Shown here piece after piece: positions 46,462 to 55,575 of a stretch of DNA of 62,087 nt; position 1 is the first letter of the stretch, and every line of letters starts with the position of its first letter. The stretch spans positions 426 to 62,512 of the forward strand of contig PFAM01000021.1 in the NCBI GenBank assembly GCA_002778705.1, read 5' to 3'. Under the pieces are notes generated by a model. The model ran no database searches, was not told the DNA's origin, and worked only from the letters and a program-made list of their open reading frames with translations. The position numbers were made by a program, and so were the translations under genes. The DNA is from Candidatus Falkowbacteria bacterium CG10_big_fil_rev_8_21_14_0_10_37_14 (lineage in GTDB: Bacteria; Patescibacteriota; Patescibacteriia; Patescibacteriales; Patescibacteriaceae).

Positions 46462-47010
46462 TTATCTAGAAGCCTTGATTTCTGTGGTATTTTCTGATTC
46501 ACAAGCACGAACGGTTAAGATACCAGTAGCACTCTTCTCAATAGTATAACCTGTTAAATCAGCCCCCCAAGAGCCTGCACCACTAGGACTAACTGGGACA
46601 CTGCCCAAATAACCTTGTTGCACTAATTCTCCTAAATTAACACAATGATCACCGGCCACTGCTTCAGCAGTAACATCAGTATCACAGAAAGTATTGCCTG
46701 CTACACAATTAGGCGTAGCAGGTGTGCCGTCAACAATCATATAAATATCTCCTACAACCATATTACCGACAGCTGCCATATAGTTACCGCCGTTATCAAC
46801 CTGATCAATTTTAATGGCGCTTAAAATAGCCGTGGTGTCAGCCCAACGCTTAGCATCACGAGAATCCCGAAAACGAGTCATTGGATCTAAAGCCACGAAC
46901 ACAACAGCGGCGATAATAGAAATAATAGCCACGACGATTAATAGCTCGATAAGAGTAAAGCCACGGCTAAACCGCCCTGAAGCTAATGAGAGATTTTTAG
47001 TTTTAAACAT
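46462..47010 (-). CDS. Type IV pilin-like protein (PilA/PilE-type)
   Basis: 182 aa. A 16-residue leader ends SRG before FTLIELLIVVAIISIIAA, the processed hydrophobic helix with Glu5; the RFRDSRDAKRWADTTAI spine follows. The C-terminal half has five Cys, among them CVAGNTFC and the final RACESE, suggesting disulfides. It has its own strong promoter separate from the pilus operon, consistent with a major pilin needing higher expression. Last gene before a strong terminator. Confidence 0.88.
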   Translation of the reverse strand: MFKTKNLSLASGRFSRGFTLIELLIVVAIISIIAAVVFVALDPMTRFRDSRDAKRWADTTAILSAIKIDQVDNGGNYMAAVGNMVVGDIYMIVDGTPATPNCVAGNTFCDTDVTAEAVAGDHCVNLGELVQQGYLGSVPVSPSGAGSWGADLTGYTIEKSATGILTVRACESENTTEIKASR

Positions 47011-47135: not shown

Positions 47136-49208
47136 TTATTTAACTAAATATCTGGAAGCAACCCAACCCAATTTACCATCAGTTAATTTAAGTTGTGTCC
47201 AACCAGCATCTAAAGCTGTTACCTCATAACTTTCTCCAGGATTTATTTTGGTCAGTAATACTCCAGAAATTGCTGGAGTGGCACGAACATTTAAAAAGCC
47301 CGTTTCAGTTTTTCCAACTGTAATGGTATCACCAACTGAAATAGCCTTAGCAATAACTGGTTTAGAAAGTTCCGGAGAAGAAGTTGAAACAGCCTCAGCT
47401 TCAACTGCAATTACATCTTCAGTGGTTGTGGTCACAACAGTATCTGCGTTTGAGACATTAGGTGATGTGCTTGGCACTTCACCAATAACCAAGGGATCAT
47501 AAATATTCAGCGGAGCCGTAATGGATACATTTAAATTTCCTTCCAAATAAACTAATGAAGCACTGTCACTTTTAACTAATTTATCCTTAGTCCAACCAAC
47601 AAAACTAGGCGGATTAACACTATAGCTGTTAAGTTGCTCCATAAGTTGCCCCAAAATCTTAGTATCTGGGTAGGCTAGCCAGCGAAAAGTGAGTGGATAG
47701 CGAGGATTTTTTTGGTTAACTATTTCATTTAACGGATCACGCCACAAAGATTCTCCCTCAACTAATAAGGCTTGAGCCTGTTTAATGGATGACTCTAAAG
47801 CTAGACTATAGCTGGCGGCCTCAGCAATCTGATTTTCTATAATACGACCGCTAACTGAAGAGGTTGGGCTACTATTCGCTACTAAGCTAACCGCTAAGCG
47901 AAACGGGACTGTTTGTATAGCCACATCTTCAGCGGCTAGACTGTCACCATATTTTTTAAGAGTCTTGTTATTATTTTTATACCACCAGGTTATACCAATC
48001 ATGGCTACACCAATCATAACAATGGCTAGAAGTAGCTTTACTTCCGTGGCTTTACGCGCCTGTTCATCATTATTATTAAACATAGGATTTTTAATGCCAA
48101 GACCAGCTGACTCAACGGCCAGCGATATAGGCTCTTTAATAGCAGGAACTTCTTTTATGACAAGATTATTATCTTTTTTACGACTATCTCCACTTAAAGA
48201 TATCATTGGCTCATTGAGCCAACGTTCTGGGAATAAATAGCGTAAACCTATGCCAATTGCACCAAGATATTCAGGATAATCACCAGGAGCTAAAACTGAT
48301 TGGGCTAAACGCACTGGCACTGGCAAATTATCGCTAAAATAATAAGGCAGACCTTTTAAACGACTGGATCCACCACTTAATAAAACTTCGGCAGATAAAC
48401 GGCCAGATTTTTCTTTATAATACTCTAAAACTCTTTTAATTTCTAAAGTAATTTCAGCTAGTAGTGGCTCCATGACTGGGTATAACTGACGATTTAAACC
48501 TAAGCGAATTTTTTTAACTTCAGCGATATTAAAATCTAAACTATAGTGCTCTGAAATAGCTTCGGTTAAGTGATCACCAGCTAATTTAAGACTGGCGGCA
48601 TACTGGATGGTACCACCATCAAATAATAAAACATTAGTAGTCTGGGCACCTAAATCTACAACCACAATAGGAGCACCGGGATCAACTACAGCTAAATCAC
48701 GAAATAAAGAATAAAGCTGTAAATCAAAACTCTCTACTGGACTTTTTAATCGCTTGGCTAAATCTTGCCAAGCTAAAAATAATTGACGACTGACGCCGAC
48801 TAGTAAAAAAGTTTCTGCTTCAACTGTTTTGCCTAAAGATTTGGAGACAAATAATAAGTCGTCTTCTGGCAAAGGCATAGCCCGACGTGCCTCAGCTCTT
48901 AGCGCCGTGGCTACATCCGCCGTCTTATCTGGTAATTTAACTACGGCAGTATAAATTTGATTAATTGGCAAAGCTAATAGCACCTGACGCCCACTAATAG
49001 CTGAGGGTCTGGCCTTAGCCATAGTTTCTTTAATAGCTGAAACCAAAGGCCCAGGCTGTTTAATGATACCATTTTCCACAATACCTCGATCTAAAACGGT
49101 GCGACCTAAACTAACTATTTTTATTTTTTTACCTATGCGACGCAATTCCGCCGCTTCAATAGATCGGTCGTCAATATCTAAACTAATGGCTGTTTTATTC
49201 CAAAACAT
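47136..49208 (-). CDS. PilM-type pilus assembly protein fused to an outer domain with SH3b
   Basis: 690 aa. Residues 1-~330 are an actin-like PilM ATPase: the opening AISLDIDDRSIEAAEL, GRQVLLALPI, PIVVVDLGAQTTNVLLFDGG and LLSGGSSRLKGL. A membrane helix at about 391-409 follows, then ~210 residues of unknown fold in PilN position, a Ser/Thr/Val-rich linker (about 580-620) and a C-terminal SH3b domain (about 625-690, TGFLNVRATP, GWTQLKLTDGKLGWVASRY). PilM is normally cytoplasmic and separate from PilN; here one chain crosses the membrane and could reach peptidoglycan through SH3b. Sits after the minor pseudopilins, 3 nt downstream. Confidence 0.85.
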   Translation of the reverse strand: MFWNKTAISLDIDDRSIEAAELRRIGKKIKIVSLGRTVLDRGIVENGIIKQPGPLVSAIKETMAKARPSAISGRQVLLALPINQIYTAVVKLPDKTADVATALRAEARRAMPLPEDDLLFVSKSLGKTVEAETFLLVGVSRQLFLAWQDLAKRLKSPVESFDLQLYSLFRDLAVVDPGAPIVVVDLGAQTTNVLLFDGGTIQYAASLKLAGDHLTEAISEHYSLDFNIAEVKKIRLGLNRQLYPVMEPLLAEITLEIKRVLEYYKEKSGRLSAEVLLSGGSSRLKGLPYYFSDNLPVPVRLAQSVLAPGDYPEYLGAIGIGLRYLFPERWLNEPMISLSGDSRKKDNNLVIKEVPAIKEPISLAVESAGLGIKNPMFNNNDEQARKATEVKLLLAIVMIGVAMIGITWWYKNNNKTLKKYGDSLAAEDVAIQTVPFRLAVSLVANSSPTSSVSGRIIENQIAEAASYSLALESSIKQAQALLVEGESLWRDPLNEIVNQKNPRYPLTFRWLAYPDTKILGQLMEQLNSYSVNPPSFVGWTKDKLVKSDSASLVYLEGNLNVSITAPLNIYDPLVIGEVPSTSPNVSNADTVVTTTTEDVIAVEAEAVSTSSPELSKPVIAKAISVGDTITVGKTETGFLNVRATPAISGVLLTKINPGESYEVTALDAGWTQLKLTDGKLGWVASRYLVK

Positions 49209-49211
49209 AAT

Positions 49212-49601
49212 TTAAAAATTTTGTAATTGCTGCCAATCTAAAACTGTAATAAGACCAGCGGTTGTAGTAACTGTAGAACGAATTCCTTGAGCATAATTAT
49301 TTAAACTGCTAATAGCGGTAATTTCTTTAGCACCAGGGAAAATTACTGAGTTGCTAACTGTTATTATACACGATCCAGGCGACAAGGACAAGGATTCTCC
49401 GCTATATGTAGATAAACGACGAAAACGTATCCAACCAGATTCTAAACAGCTTTCTGCTAATCTTAGTGCTGAGGATCCTCCAGCATCATCCACAGCTGAA
49501 TCTAAACGTGATAAGCCGGTCCAAGTCATACTAATAGCCAAAATAAGACCAAGACTGGTAACTATTAAAACTATAACTAAAGCTGCTAAACCTCTGTGCA
49601 T
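49212..49601 (-). CDS. PilX-like minor pilus protein
   Basis: 129 aa from ATG 49601, 4 nt after the upstream stop. Short basic start HRG then LAALVIVLIVTSLGLILAISM helix, RLAESCLESGWIRFRR (typical PilX A-E-x-C-L pattern), and a beta-rich remainder. No canonical G|F...E prepilin site, as in many PilX-type proteins. A cotranslated part of the pilus operon. Confidence 0.7.
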   Translation of the reverse strand: MHRGLAALVIVLIVTSLGLILAISMTWTGLSRLDSAVDDAGGSSALRLAESCLESGWIRFRRLSTYSGESLSLSPGSCIITVSNSVIFPGAKEITAISSLNNYAQGIRSTVTTTAGLITVLDWQQLQNF

Positions 49602-49605
49602 ATTT

Positions 49606-50136
49606 TTATGGGCAGATGCCTTTATAACCAGAACCGCAAACACGACGCACGGCTACAATTAAAGTGGAGGATGATTGATAATAGCGATATGGTCCGAGAT
49701 CAGGTGAACCAGCTGAGACGGATAAATCAATAACCGCTGTAACATCATTAAGCTTACTAATCCGAAAATAGTCCAAATGAACATCAAGTGGTGTGATATA
49801 AACAGTGGGGCCAGAAACAATTTGTCTTAATAAACGATTATCCGCCCGATTATACAAAAAGACTGTACTTATGGTGTTTAGTGGGGCATTGAGCTTTAAA
49901 ATACCAAAATCGCTATTAAGCACCGAGTTATCCCAGTTAATGCTGTAGGCATTTCTTACTTTTAAAGCAATCTGAGACTCGGCAAAACGCAGAGCATATT
50001 GAACTTCAGATTGCAATGTTGATCGTTGATTTATTTTTCCAATATTAGTAGCGAACCCAACAACAGAAAACAAGCAAATACCAATAATGGCAATATATAG
50101 TAAGACCTCTATTAAGGTTAAACCTAAGTGTTTCAT
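49606..50136 (-). CDS. PilW/PilJ-type minor pseudopilin
   Basis: 176 aa from ATG 50136. MKHLGLTLIEVLLYIAIIG is a prepilin signal (site after HLG, TLIEV with Glu) and the VQYALRFAESQIALKVRNAY spine fits the PilW family. The C-terminus has CGSGYKGICP. Translated 7 nt after the previous stop. Initiates pilus tips with the other minor pseudopilins, by family analogy. Confidence 0.75.
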   Translation of the reverse strand: MKHLGLTLIEVLLYIAIIGICLFSVVGFATNIGKINQRSTLQSEVQYALRFAESQIALKVRNAYSINWDNSVLNSDFGILKLNAPLNTISTVFLYNRADNRLLRQIVSGPTVYITPLDVHLDYFRISKLNDVTAVIDLSVSAGSPDLGPYRYYQSSSTLIVAVRRVCGSGYKGICP

Positions 50137-50143
50137 ATTTAAA

Positions 50144-50626
50144 TTACTCAAAGGAAGTGTGATTGATAAGCCACAACGATCGTTCCAAAGTGGCTGTTTC
50201 ACCACTAGGAGTTGACCAAGAAATAATCACACGCACCTTTCTGGTGGCTGGATCATTAACGCCATTAGGACAATCAATAATAGGTCCACTTAAAATCGTT
50301 CTACAAACATTAGTAAAAAATAAACGACGAGACAACTCTCCTTGATTGTCGTAAGTCCCCTCGCCTTTTAAAACCCAGACATTAGATTGACGATCTAGTC
50401 CTGATTGATTAACAGACAAAGAGTCCCAATTATTCCAAGCAATCCAGCGCGAACCTTCTAAACCTTCTTCGGCCCAAACAGAGGCTCGTTCATATAAAGC
50501 ACCTCGATCACTAGCTTGATTGCCCGTCATCCATAAAGCGCCCACACTAGAAGCTACTAAAGCAAAGATCGCTAAAGCAATGATTATTTCTAATAAAGAC
50601 AATCCTTTCGACTTATTAAATATCAT
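50144..50626 (-). CDS. PilV-type minor pseudopilin
   Basis: 160 aa. FNKSKGLSLLEIIIALAIFALVA is a prepilin signal (site KG-L, LEI). The body has the ERASVWAEEGLEGSRWIAW stretch typical of PilV/GspI-like pseudopilins and a Cys pair (VCRTILSGPIIDC). The start overlaps the stop of the upstream gene in ATGA. Confidence 0.78.
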   Translation of the reverse strand: MIFNKSKGLSLLEIIIALAIFALVASSVGALWMTGNQASDRGALYERASVWAEEGLEGSRWIAWNNWDSLSVNQSGLDRQSNVWVLKGEGTYDNQGELSRRLFFTNVCRTILSGPIIDCPNGVNDPATRKVRVIISWSTPSGETATLERSLWLINHTSFE

Positions 50627-51123
50627 AAAGCAGAGCTTACTTCCACCAAACCAATACTATTAATATCAATAGTCGCCTTAAAATTATCGGCATCAGTAAT
50701 AACAATCTGTCCACTGCGACTAGGTACGCCCGTGCCTTTACTAAAAATAACTTCATCAACAGAGCCACTACCAGTTAATTGCCAAGACACCGCTAAACCA
50801 TTAACCCCCATATCTAAAACCTGATCATAAGCAATTATCCTAGACGCATAATTAGAACCTCTAAATAAAATTAGCTGATTATTCATTAACTTAATGCCGT
50901 GCTGACTATTGCCTAAACCGGCGGCGGCGGCCTCTTCTAATTTTCTAATTAGCTGTGTAGCTCTAAAACCTTGTTCACGTAAAATAGCTTCGCCCGTTAA
51001 GCCCCCCCAAAGAGGCCAAGCAGTCGCTATAACAAGAGAAGCAACTGTTAAAGTTATCAACAATTCTATTAGAGTAAAGCCCTTTGTTGCTGAGCCCCCA
51101 CAAAGAATAACATTCTGTTTCAT
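50623..51123 (-). CDS. FimT/GspH-type minor pseudopilin
   Basis: 166 aa. CGGSATKGFTLIELLITLTV gives the prepilin cleavage site and helix. The body (FRATQLIRKLEEAAAAGLGNSQHGIKL) is GspH/FimT-like. Starts 1 nt after the pilC stop; its own stop overlaps the next start. Confidence 0.8.
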   Translation of the reverse strand: MKQNVILCGGSATKGFTLIELLITLTVASLVIATAWPLWGGLTGEAILREQGFRATQLIRKLEEAAAAGLGNSQHGIKLMNNQLILFRGSNYASRIIAYDQVLDMGVNGLAVSWQLTGSGSVDEVIFSKGTGVPSRSGQIVITDADNFKATIDINSIGLVEVSSAL

Positions 51124-51124
51124 A

Positions 51125-52210
51125 TTAACGAATATTACCGGTCATGTTGTAAATTGGAGTTACGATAGCTAAGGCCAAAAAACAAACAGCTGAGCCGATA
51201 ATTAATAACATTAAAGGCTCTACAACAGTCGCTAAATTTTTAGAAGCCTCATCAACCTTTTCTTCATAATACTCAGCTAGATAATATAAAGGGTCTTCAA
51301 GATGGCCAGACTGCTCACCAACTGCGACCATACGAACAACCATTTCTGGGAACAATTTTTTTTGTCTAGCTAAAATAGTGGATAATCGACCACCTTTATC
51401 AACTGCCAAGCGTACTTGTGCTAAAGCTTGCCTGTAATACCAATTATTTAAAGTTTTTTCAGAAATCAACAAAGATTCAGTAATGTTTAAACCACTAGAT
51501 AGCATAGTAGCTAACACTCGACAAAAACGAGCAGTGTTGAGATGGCGACTGATATTTTTAAACAGTGGCAAATTCATAATTAACCTATCTGTAAAGGGCT
51601 TGGTCTTAGGCCAACGCCAAAGAGCCAGACAACCAAAAGCTAACAAAGCTGAGCCTAATAAAGTTTGCCAACCGTAAGCTTTCAAAAAATTAGAGGTATT
51701 AATTAACAAGACGGTTGTCCAAGGTAATTTCATACGCATACCTTGAAACATTGGAATAATTTTAGGTAAAATATAGAAAGCCATAAAAATACCTAAAGAA
51801 ATAGTAGCACCTAAGATTAACGAAGGATAAATTAAAGCCCCACGAACTTTACTCATTAATTCGGCTTCTTTAGCCAGTTCCTTAGCTACACGTTCTAAAT
51901 TTTGACTCAAAGTACCAGAATTTTCACCAGCATAAATAGCTCCAACAAAATAACCAGAAAAAATCTTTGGGTAACGTTCTAAAGCGGCCGAAAAACTTTC
52001 TCCAGCACTAACCGCCTTATATAAACCCTCCACCACTCCGCGCATTTTACCTTTTGTGGTGCTATAAACCGTTTCTAAAGAATCTGTTAAGATAAGACCA
52101 GATTTCAACATGACAGCAAGATTCTTAGCAAAAGATGCCCGCTCAGCAGCGGACACAAAGCCAAATTCTACATTAAAAATACCTGCTGAAGATTTTATAT
52201 TTTTAGCCAT
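51125..52210 (-). CDS. pilC: Type IV pilus inner-membrane platform protein PilC
   Basis: 361 aa (usual ~400). Two type II secretion F domains with their repeated helical pattern (FAKNLAVMLKSGLILTDSLE and FCRVLATMLSSGLNITESLL), three membrane helices (about 130-155, 180-198, 334-354). Anchors the motor PilB to the pilus. 1 nt after pilB. Confidence 0.93.
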   Translation of the reverse strand: MAKNIKSSAGIFNVEFGFVSAAERASFAKNLAVMLKSGLILTDSLETVYSTTKGKMRGVVEGLYKAVSAGESFSAALERYPKIFSGYFVGAIYAGENSGTLSQNLERVAKELAKEAELMSKVRGALIYPSLILGATISLGIFMAFYILPKIIPMFQGMRMKLPWTTVLLINTSNFLKAYGWQTLLGSALLAFGCLALWRWPKTKPFTDRLIMNLPLFKNISRHLNTARFCRVLATMLSSGLNITESLLISEKTLNNWYYRQALAQVRLAVDKGGRLSTILARQKKLFPEMVVRMVAVGEQSGHLEDPLYYLAEYYEEKVDEASKNLATVVEPLMLLIIGSAVCFLALAIVTPIYNMTGNIR

Positions 52211-52211
52211 A

Positions 52212-53900
52212 TTAAGAACGTGCTACTCTTAAAACTTCTTCAATACTTGTTAAACCAGATAAGGCTTTGTCCAAACCATCTTCCAACATGGTTTGCATAC
52301 CTCGCTTAATAGCCTCTTCCATAATTTTCCCAGAATCATCCTTGTTGATAATCATTTGACGAATTCTACTATCAACATCCAAAACTTCAAAAATACCAAT
52401 ACGGCCCTGATAACCAGTAAAGTCACAAACAGGACAGCCGACACCCTTATAAGAGCTTAACTTGGAAAGAGTTTTATAACCACGCCTGTTTAAATATTCT
52501 TTAGCAACTGGGTCAGCTGACAAAAACTCAGCCTCCTCATTACTAAGAGATCCTGAAGCACGACACTTCTCACAATTTTTACGGACTAGTCGTTGAGCAA
52601 TAACAACATTAACAGTAGAAGCTTCTAAAAATGGCTCAATACCCATATCCAATAAACGTGGTAAAGCACTAGGAGCATCGTTAGTATGTAAAGTAGACAA
52701 AACTAAATGACCAGTTAAAGCAGAGCTGACAGCTATACCAGCAGTTTCATCGTCACGAATTTCACCAACCATAATAATATCAGGATCTTGACGTAAAATG
52801 GAGCGCAAACCCGAGGCAAAGGTTAGATTGGATTTACTATCAACTTGAATTTGGCTAACTCCTTCAATAGCATACTCTACAGGATCTTCAATGGTGGCGA
52901 TATGCACCTCAACTCGATTTAAAATATTCAATACAGCATATAGTGTAGTGGTTTTACCAGAACCAGTTGGTCCAGTAACTAAAATCATACCATGTGGACG
53001 ACTAATAGCTTTTTTAACTTTTTTTAAATCCGCTTCATTAAAACCTAAATTAACTAAGGTAATGCTGTGTGATTGAGCAGATAATAAACGTAAAACAGCA
53101 TTTTCGCCGTCAGAAATAGGCACTATAGACACACGCACATCTAAAGCACCACCATCCACTTCAAAACGAATTTTACCATCTTGAGCACTGCGTCGTTCAT
53201 CGGTTCTGAGACGCGCCATAATCTTGATACGAGAAATCAAAGAATCAGCCAGAGACTTATCTATCTCTAACATACGGTGCATAACACCATCGATACGAAA
53301 ACGAACAACTATTTTTTTAATATATGGTTCAATGTGAATATCTGAAGCTTTAGCATGATAACCTTTTTCTAAAAGCAAATCTACCATTTTAATAATAACC
53401 TCATCTCGAACATCTTGATTAACCTGCTTATCTTGGCCAATTGCCACTAAACTAGCGAACTCTTCAGACAAACTTCCTGCATAATAATTAAAAATTTCTT
53501 CAAAATCTTGCTCGCCTATAAACATAGGTAAAAGCCTTTCTCCTAATCTTTTTTCGGCAATATGTAAAGCAGGTAGGTCCGAAGGGTCCACCATAGCTAA
53601 ACGAATCTTTTTGCCTTTACGATCAACTGGAATAATACGATAAGCCCTGGCTGAATTTTCTGGAATCATTTTTAACAAATCCTTGTCTATTTTAGCTTGC
53701 TTCAAATCTAACCAAGGTACACCATAGTGTTCAGCTAAGGCTTGCCCGAGTAATTCTCTAGTAATTAAACCATCCTCTAAAAGAGCTTCCGATAAAGAAA
53801 GGGCATAGGTCTGAGCGGTTTTCTCGGCCTTAGCAATATCAACCTCAGTTAAATAACTTTGACTGATTAAAATTTGTTTTAATTGGTCCCCCTCTAACAT
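52212..53900 (-). CDS. pilB: Type IV pilus assembly ATPase PilB
   Basis: Powers pilus extension. 562 aa. N-terminal T2SSE_N (about 1-150) with AEHYGVPWLDL, then the ATPase: Walker A GPTGSGKTTTLYAVL, Asp box TIEDPVEY, Walker B DIIMVGEIRDDETA, His box LTGHLVLSTLHTNDA. A tetra-Cys zinc site (CEKC and CPVC) precedes the C-terminal subdomain, as in PilB/GspE. No pilT retraction ATPase is in this window. 3 nt after the response regulator. Confidence 0.95.
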   Translation of the reverse strand: MLEGDQLKQILISQSYLTEVDIAKAEKTAQTYALSLSEALLEDGLITRELLGQALAEHYGVPWLDLKQAKIDKDLLKMIPENSARAYRIIPVDRKGKKIRLAMVDPSDLPALHIAEKRLGERLLPMFIGEQDFEEIFNYYAGSLSEEFASLVAIGQDKQVNQDVRDEVIIKMVDLLLEKGYHAKASDIHIEPYIKKIVVRFRIDGVMHRMLEIDKSLADSLISRIKIMARLRTDERRSAQDGKIRFEVDGGALDVRVSIVPISDGENAVLRLLSAQSHSITLVNLGFNEADLKKVKKAISRPHGMILVTGPTGSGKTTTLYAVLNILNRVEVHIATIEDPVEYAIEGVSQIQVDSKSNLTFASGLRSILRQDPDIIMVGEIRDDETAGIAVSSALTGHLVLSTLHTNDAPSALPRLLDMGIEPFLEASTVNVVIAQRLVRKNCEKCRASGSLSNEEAEFLSADPVAKEYLNRRGYKTLSKLSSYKGVGCPVCDFTGYQGRIGIFEVLDVDSRIRQMIINKDDSGKIMEEAIKRGMQTMLEDGLDKALSGLTSIEEVLRVARS

Positions 53901-53903
53901 AAA

Positions 53904-54272
53904 TTAAGCCATTATGGTGGCTACCTTATTTACTAAATCTTTAATACTTACTTCTGATTTTATAAAATAATCCTTGGCACCAAGTTCTCTAACTCTTTTT
54001 AAATCTTCTGCTTGACCTAAATTAGTAGCCACCACAACAGGAATCTGATATTTAAGACGACTCATTTCTTCCAAAACCTGAAAACCATTAACCTTTGGCA
54101 TGATTAAATCCAAAATTAACAAATCAATACCACCCTGAGCTAAACGCTTTAAAGCTTCTTCACCATCACTAGCTGTTTCCACATTAAAACCCAAACTGTT
54201 TAATTTTAGGTTAATAGTATGCGCTAAAGTGTCTTCATCTTCAGCGATTAAAATTGTTTTACTTTTCGTCAT
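53904..54272 (-). CDS. Single-domain response regulator (CheY-like)
   Basis: 122 aa from ATG 54272; an ATG four codons upstream is less likely as the promoter predicts a leaderless start at 54272. Receiver domain only: acidic pocket EDED at 11-14, phospho-acceptor Asp55 in ILDLIMP, Thr83, Lys105 in YFIKS. No output domain and no histidine kinase in the window. First gene of the pilus operon, directly before pilB, so it may tune the pilus motor by protein contact. Confidence 0.93.
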   Translation of the reverse strand: MTKSKTILIAEDEDTLAHTINLKLNSLGFNVETASDGEEALKRLAQGGIDLLILDLIMPKVNGFQVLEEMSRLKYQIPVVVATNLGQAEDLKRVRELGAKDYFIKSEVSIKDLVNKVATIMA

Positions 54273-54279
54273 ATGTTTT

Positions 54280-54307
54280 ATCATACCATATTTAAAACTT
54301 AAAGCAA
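54280..54307 (-). promoter_or_regulatory. Promoter of the pilus operon (leaderless)
   Basis: -35 TTGCTT (54307-54302), 16-nt spacer, -10 TATGAT (54285-54280); 7 nt to the ATG at 54272. The -35 lies inside the inverted repeat at 54303-54338. Confidence 0.6.
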
Positions 54308-54483: not shown

Positions 54484-55575
54484 TTAATGACAAGAAGCGA
54501 CTGTATTAGAGCTTGCTACAGCTGAAAAACCAAAACCAGCAGCCGGAGTTTCGGAAGATAATACCGCAGAACATTCTGCTGGTTTATTAGTAAAACTATC
54601 ACAAATAGCCTTAAGTAAAGCAGAAGGACTACGATTAACAGAAACCGTGGTACCATTAATAACTAATGTTGGAGAACCTTGAACTCCGTACTTTTCATTA
54701 TCGGCTTTATAAATATTAAACGCAGGATAATTACCACCGTTTTTAGCACCAGCTATTATATTATATTTAGTATCAGTCTCTGTAACACAATTAATCAAAC
54801 TGCTTGGATTAATACCAGTTTGTATTAAACATTTTTCAGAACCGTTTTCATCAGCCAAGAAGCATTTTAGATATGGCCAAAATTTTTCTGGTTTTATTTT
54901 TCCAATACAATATTGCGTCAACTCTTCATTTAATTCTTTACCTCCATGCATGGCATAATCTACAAACTTTAATTGCAAATCAATCTTAGAACCAAGAAGC
55001 TCATACACTGGCAACAAACCTTTTTCTATTTGAGTGCCAAAGGGGCAGTGACTCATAACAAAAAGCTCTACTACTGGTTTGTCAGCCTTGTTAATTTTTA
55101 CGGTAGCTGGTTCTGTAACTGGAGAACTCGCTTGGTCTGGTTTTTTAACAACATCGGCAACTAAATCCATACTTTGAGGGAAAAACAACTTACCGTCCTT
55201 AGTGACATAAATCTTGATAGCGTCAACACTATCGTTTAAAAAAACATCTAATTCATATAATCCAGGATTAAAATCTCTAGCATTGCTTAATTTTAATTTA
55301 GTTTCCGAGGAAATCAAATTATTCTTAATAAAAATTTCGGCTAGCTTTTTAATTTCAGTTGCCGATTTAATTACAAAAGTAGGTGCCTTCACTAACGGAT
55401 TTTTCACCACTGTTTTGACACCGTTGACAGCAGGTTTAACAGCAGGTTTAACTACTGATTTAACAACATTAGGTTTAGCCACTGGCTTAGTAACGGAGGT
55501 GGCAGCCCGAGCTCCATAAAAAACAACCAGAGATAAAACCAAGAGAGATAAAGCAATAAATTTCAATTGACGCAT
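54484..55575 (-). CDS. Exported thioredoxin-fold (DsbA/GILT-like) protein
   Basis: 363 aa. Signal peptide (about 1-25), a Lys/Pro/Val repeat-rich stretch to about residue 65, a small ~70-residue domain, then a thioredoxin-like domain from about 165: ELFVMSHCPFGTQIEKGLLP with a single catalytic-type Cys177 (CPFG instead of CxxC), a helical insert with Cys residues, and the cis-Pro loop GVQGSPTLVING. The last residues are SCH. Resembles DsbA/GILT-type redox domains of archaea and CPR. It may handle disulfides of the Cys-rich surface proteins encoded nearby; this is inference. Confidence 0.75.
   Translation of the reverse strand: MRQLKFIALSLLVLSLVVFYGARAATSVTKPVAKPNVVKSVVKPAVKPAVNGVKTVVKNPLVKAPTFVIKSATEIKKLAEIFIKNNLISSETKLKLSNARDFNPGLYELDVFLNDSVDAIKIYVTKDGKLFFPQSMDLVADVVKKPDQASSPVTEPATVKINKADKPVVELFVMSHCPFGTQIEKGLLPVYELLGSKIDLQLKFVDYAMHGGKELNEELTQYCIGKIKPEKFWPYLKCFLADENGSEKCLIQTGINPSSLINCVTETDTKYNIIAGAKNGGNYPAFNIYKADNEKYGVQGSPTLVINGTTVSVNRSPSALLKAICDSFTNKPAECSAVLSSETPAAGFGFSAVASSNTVASCH

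Follow-up and report, generated by a model that had tools for sequence, protein, structure and literature searches.

A PilM-type protein joined through a single membrane helix to a C-terminal SH3b domain in a type II secretion-like locus of a Candidatus Falkowbacteria genome

The window, i.e. the whole 62,087-nucleotide stretch of DNA that was analysed, lies on contig C17 of a 0.91 Mb Candidatus Falkowbacteria genome that is 90% complete. It carries on the minus strand a tight run of genes in the order response regulator-E-F-H-I-J-K-[fusion]-G, the eighth of which encodes the fused protein considered here. The order is type II secretion-like, with the fusion occupying the slot of GspL, and the intergenic gaps from the response regulator through the fusion range from -62 to +3 nt. 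The genes flanking the fusion are as follows.

53904..54284, minus strand: response-regulator receiver-like protein, first in the run (gap 3 nt), assigned from sequence only
52212..53900, minus strand: assembly ATPase GspE/PilB with an MshEN domain (T2SSE 1e-129, MshEN 7e-15)
51125..52210, minus strand: platform protein GspF/PilC (T2SSF 5e-53; GspF 8.4e-81)
50623..51123, minus strand: GspH-like prepilin (N_methyl 5.4e-7; GspH model 2.3e-4)
50144..50626, minus strand: GspI-like prepilin (N_methyl 2.3e-6)
49606..50205, minus strand: GspJ-like prepilin (N_methyl 2.6e-4, slightly below the cut-off)
49212..49643, minus strand: small GspK/PilX-like minor pilin-like protein, directly upstream of the fusion (gap 3 nt; weak GspK match, E 0.085)
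46462..47010, minus strand: GspG-like major (pseudo)pilin, downstream of the fusion (gap 125 nt; N_methyl 1.1e-8; GspH/GspG models)

The response-regulator gene has the same position in the relatives L036, L042 and L043. The gene next to the fusion encodes a prepilin, not a separate PilN, and no pilN, pilO, pilP, gspM or gspC gene is present within the locus. At the same locus in relatives, some GspI-like prepilins have very large additions (552 to 1431 aa; L038 12072-16367, L039 3887-7228, L035 5904-7562), and are likely modular adhesive pilins. In two related genomes the GspK-like gene is separated from that of the fused PilM by a gene for a hydrophobic protein of ~421 aa (L092 235-1500; L096 1377-2645).

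The fusion itself (47136-49208, minus strand) is a single unbroken frame of 690 aa with an ATG start, which divides into the following parts.

48219..49208, minus strand: PilM-like actin-fold domain, predicted to be cytoplasmic, residues 1-330 (Pfam PilM_2; phmmer to 2ych)
48048..48218, minus strand: junction, predicted to be cytoplasmic, residues 331-387 (junction listing, motif counts)
47979..48047, minus strand: single transmembrane helix, residues 388-410 (hydropathy)
47493..47936, minus strand: alpha/beta domain, predicted to be extracytoplasmic, residues 425-572 (AlphaFold2)
47310..47492, minus strand: V/T/S/A-rich linker, predicted disordered, residues 573-633 (composition; pLDDT <50 over most of its length)
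47139..47309, minus strand: SH3b domain, residues 634-690 (SH3_3 match; fold match to 4krt)

Both terminal domains are recognised by Pfam, namely PilM_2 (PF11104; residues 10-303, E 2.3e-22) and SH3_3 (PF08239; residues 638-688, E 5.2e-9), which score 79.8 and 36.6 bits, respectively, where the cut-off is 27 for each. The solved structures nearest to the protein are those of PilM from T. thermophilus (2ych, E 1.5e-14) and P. aeruginosa (5eox, E 3.8e-9). The NCBIfam PilM model TIGR01175 scores 94.3 bits, below its curated cut-off of 133, and the PilM domain thus belongs to a divergent subfamily. Between the two domains a hydropathy scan gives a sole stretch above threshold, at residues ~386-411. 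AlphaFold2 prediction of residues 408-690, with three natural relatives in the input, shows the outer domain folded with confidence, the linker as disordered and the C terminus as an SH3b fold; the last superimposes on the SH3b domain of an endolysin (4krt) with a VIA-align Z of 11.2 and an rmsd of 1.4 A over 64 residues, and its fold matches include wall-hydrolase SH3b domains (4krt, lysostaphin). Thus, the sequence-only reading, which had proposed a PilM domain, one membrane helix, an outer region and an SH3b domain in one chain, is correct on every structural point, including the SH3 fold for which it had asked for a structure prediction. Since the same full architecture recurs in independent genomes, with 46%, 33% and 29% identity over residues 3-688, 4-688 and 7-688 (Candidatus Falkowbacteria UBA917 being among the sources of full-length relatives), the fusion is neither an assembly chimera nor a product of chance.

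The orientation in the membrane, with PilM inside and the remainder outside, is likely on the ground that PilM must be inside; the charge signal is weak in the fused forms (mean +2.5 before the helix and +1.0 after) and is reversed in the protein of the window (-1 before, +3 after). The outer domain is predicted with confidence when modelled alone (pLDDT 87.5, pTM 0.78; strands and helices, in model numbering, E6-17 E31-37 H43-56 E62-64 E82-90 H91-103 E111-115 E119-122 E128-139), and fold searches found no clear relative (best Foldseek E 0.097, best VIA Z 6.1). The rows returned, e.g. Rpb7-like subunits of RNA polymerase, dodecin, FtsA and PilM, share a beta-alpha-beta-beta arrangement and all lie in the range expected of such a common arrangement, so no fold name is assigned, and the domain may or may not be of PilN/GspL type. 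Comparison with PilO (3jc8) gives a VIA Z of 3.9 with an rmsd of 4.4, profile-profile comparison finds no similarity to the PilN and PilO of the clade (hhalign probability 0.1% for PilN), and the PilN family PF05137 has no Pfam match in the fusion.

The junction between the PilM domain and the helix is more informative in some relatives. Of 49 fused or cluster PilMs, 11 have an [ILV]NL[LI] peptide, e.g. INLLPAKQR, LNLLPGKSH or INLLPVGGGK, after the PilM domain, placed directly ahead of the helix or at the C-terminal end; of 54 other PilMs, 1 has such a peptide. At the loci of these other PilMs, the adjoining protein, i.e. that in the PilN position, has such a motif within its first 120 residues in 33 of 54 cases, almost invariably at its N-terminal end (MINLLP..., MITINLLP..., MLTLNLIS...). 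In the subset of relatives concerned, there is therefore direct sequence evidence that the junction may derive from, or imitate, the starting peptide of PilN. Where relatives have INLLP, the fusion in the window has a degenerate motif, EPMISLSGD (residues ~333-341), which may have the same PilN-peptide role. The first readable downstream neighbour is a prepilin for 33 of 42 fused or cluster PilMs, versus none of the 54 other PilMs. Some PilMs without a helix end in INLLANL, INLLKNIK or INLLPVGGGK (L131 1501-2562, L133 1483-2553 and L108 1492-2589, respectively), such that the PilN-type peptide is borne on PilM's own C terminus.

A survey of the fusion in CPR genomes, as the sequence-only reading had suggested, found modular PilM fusions in many relatives. 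Profiles were searched against three overlapping draws of genomes, from the order (n=111), the class (n=381) and the phylum (n=380). The query for the pattern search was a four-row alignment, a six-row alignment being too diverse, and a contig scan with the single protein gave no match. The fused form is present in roughly 17 genomes of the order (n=111), belonging to several families; in the class (n=381), 63 genomes have a match at E <= 1e-70, most of them in open frames of >410 aa, and beyond the class the phylum sample has few fused forms (G573, G721 and possibly G559). In the loci fetched, a helix follows the PilM region in 44 ORFs, of which L004 is probably not a true relative. Both the outer domain and SH3b are found in 10 of them; SH3b occurs without the outer domain in 14, the outer domain without SH3b in 7, and 13 have neither, so that SH3b is present in 24 of ~43 fused forms and the outer domain in 17, the fusion in the window included.

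Other ends occur among the 13 with neither module. In L062 (1009-2583, minus strand) LytR_C (E 3.1e-10) follows PilM and the helix in the place of SH3b; L129 (852-3116, plus strand) has PilM, a VNLLP peptide, the helix and a weakly Baseplate_J-like outer region (E 0.007); and L051 has LNLLP at the junction together with a weak PilN match (E 0.053). At the same locus, certain members consist of PilM alone, without the helix. Since SH3b, the outer domain and even the helix may each be missing from relatives at this locus, all three can be dispensed with. In a quick tree of 104 rows, 37 rows, nearly all of them fused, form one group apart from canonical PilMs with 98% SH-aLRT, and the states change 7 times for SH3b and 8 times for the outer domain, cut or doubtful rows being excluded from these counts (the 'helix only' forms L061, L096 and L068 are cut by contig ends). 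These gains and losses of modules across relatives mark the outer half as a modular end on a conserved PilM-helix core.

The genome encodes more than one such machine. Contig C22 has a set comprising a 353-aa PilM, a 602-aa PilN-like protein in which the cytoplasmic part is long, PilO-like (215 aa) and PilP-like (121 aa) proteins, PilB, PilC and pilins, where the names PilN, PilO and PilP, which Pfam does not recognise, are based on position and topology. A second response regulator-PilB-PilC-H-I-J-K locus, on contig C15 (L089 7694-13599), is without PilM; in the sister species G001, a locus comparable to that on C15 retains a short PilM-helix-SH3b fusion (L036 9164-10858). On contig C10 (L090 6008-9046, minus strand), a 1012-aa ORF has two tandem PilT/PilB-family ATPase domains, an unusual double motor. 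One prepilin peptidase was found in the genome. A secretin (PF00263, GspD) gave no match in this 90%-complete genome, whereas control genomes do match. Mur ligases are encoded at four places, from which it follows that the organism probably makes peptidoglycan.

The C22 locus bears directly on the proposal, made in the sequence-only reading, that the fusion stands in for PilN, PilO and PilP. The separate pilN and pilO genes with standard partners that this reading had named beforehand as contrary evidence are present there, in standard-looking form. The proposal is thus in keeping with the fusion locus, where there is no PilN or PilO gene, and fails for the genome, as C22 has PilM, PilN-like, PilO-like and PilP-like proteins, PilB, PilC and pilins; genome-wide replacement was dropped once this locus had been found. 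The fusion is accordingly assigned to one of several filament systems.

A closer parallel, overlooked in the sequence-only reading, is GspL/PulL, which is already a fusion of PilM and PilN with one membrane helix and has been described as such (PMC10191384, PMC4471445). Like GspL/PulL/EpsL, the protein combines an actin-like cytoplasmic domain, one helix and a folded outer domain in a single chain, and its gene has the same place in an E-F-H-I-J-K-L-G-like set. Unlike GspL, it is PilM by sequence, the Pfam families T2SSL and GspL_C being absent at E up to 0.1; its outer domain, confidently modelled as alpha/beta and with no clear fold match, is not recognisably ferredoxin-like as in GspL and PilN; and it has an additional linker and SH3b domain, with no secretin in the genome and no GspC or GspM in the locus. 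PilM and PilN are also naturally fused in the type IV pili of C. difficile (PMC6916266), a further case in which a bacterium lacking an outer membrane has such a fusion in its pilus machine; here, by contrast, there is no PilO in the locus and no detectable PilN domain, and no SH3b has been reported for the C. difficile protein. The PilM domain is shared with the type IVa PilMs (T. thermophilus 2ych, P. aeruginosa 5eox), which unlike the fusion are soluble and need a separate PilN, whereas the fusion is membrane-anchored with an outer part. The Amuc_1101 family (NF045709, model 608 aa) is similarly PilM-like and longer than canonical PilM (E 1.2e-17), but the match, of 64 bits against a cut-off of 650, spans the PilM part of the fusion only.

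A report on freshwater CPR genomes describes GspE, GspL, GspG, H and I in Patescibacteria without outer-membrane parts (PMC9166423). The 'GspL' of those genomes, reported without domain architecture, may be of the same family as the fusion, and the fusion may then account for the puzzling 'incomplete T2SS' that includes GspL in CPR genomes. No description of a PilM-SH3b fusion was found in the literature searched, subscription papers being largely outside its scope. PilM-PilN fusions are thus already known, while no earlier account appears to exist of the form with an SH3b tail or of its distribution among Patescibacteria.

Given the INLLP peptide at the PilM/helix junction in some relatives, the protein is best read as a GspL-like fusion of PilM-PilN type. 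It would serve as a platform subunit in a second machine for type IV filaments, with PilM joined to a PilN-type membrane anchor. Inside the cell, the docking partner of the PilM domain would be the assembly ATPase, whose gene lies a few positions upstream, as suggested by the known behaviour of GspL with GspE (PMC4471445), and the contact between PilM and PilN would be made in cis, by the junction peptide or the helix. This one helix would span the membrane next to PilC, the platform protein; on the outer side, the folded domain may occupy the position of the PilN/PilO rings that normally encircle the growing pilus, with the flexible linker and SH3b domain holding the machine to peptidoglycan. 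Such putative wall binding is plausible because of the common behaviour of SH3b domains and the occurrence of LytR_C in the same slot in one relative. Overall, we consider it probable that the fusion is a GspL-like membrane-anchored PilM, which brings in the neighbouring ATPase and tethers the machine to peptidoglycan via SH3b; counting against this are the lack of a PilN/PilO match for the outer domain, the unmatched GspL families in Pfam, the lack of a PilO/GspM-like gene in the locus, the degenerate junction motif and reversed charge bias of this member, and the relatives at the locus in which SH3b, the outer domain or the helix is missing.

SH3b domains are diverse in their ligands, and the protein could be a platform subunit of which the SH3b domain binds another protein, e.g. 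a pilin, a modular minor pilin or another envelope protein, rather than peptidoglycan. The persistence of the locus without any SH3b in some relatives, and the large, modular pilins encoded there, are in keeping with this possibility, which is nonetheless rather unlikely given that the fold matches include wall-hydrolase SH3b domains and that LytR_C, another envelope-associated domain, takes the same slot in one relative. It is also conceivable, to about the same limited extent, that the fusion is an extra adaptor, with PilN and PilO supplied in trans by the canonical C22 locus and nothing replaced. The presence of that set in the same genome, the lack of a PilO in the fusion locus and the existence of another E-F-H-I-J-K locus, on C15, without any PilM would all accommodate an adaptor; however, the neighbour of fused forms is usually a prepilin, not PilN, and the INLLP junction of relatives would compete with a separate PilN.

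Replacement of PilN, PilO and PilP throughout the cell, to which the lack of all three in the fusion locus and of a secretin match in the genome would lend themselves, is very improbable in the face of the standard-looking PilM-PilN-PilO-PilP-like genes with PilB and PilC on C22. Hardly more credible, if anything less so, is an actin-family factor of cell shape or division outside any filament machine: weak matches to FtsA and MreB exist, as they do for other PilMs scanned, but PilM_2 is the best family, and the gene sits among pilus genes in relative after relative.

How pilus machines cross, or attach to, peptidoglycan in bacteria without an outer membrane has been a matter of speculation, including on a role for PilO (PMC6916266), and a single chain with PilM and an outer SH3b domain is a concrete candidate for a wall anchor in such a setting. 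This candidate concerns a bacterial group in which pili drive attachment to hosts (PMC12206443). More tentatively, and as a possibility that we do not favour at present, the whole PilM-PilN-PilO platform might be condensed into one chain in a second Patescibacteria type IV filament. Such a chain would carry its PilN peptide in cis, an outer domain of new fold and interchangeable ends that bind the wall (SH3b, LytR_C), and would fix the pilus motor straight to peptidoglycan, with neither PilO and PilP nor a secretin involved.

Just upstream of the operon, the window also encodes a thioredoxin/DsbA-like protein with a CPFG motif (54484-55575), and this neighbour is kept beside the locus in relatives (L035 1371-2543).
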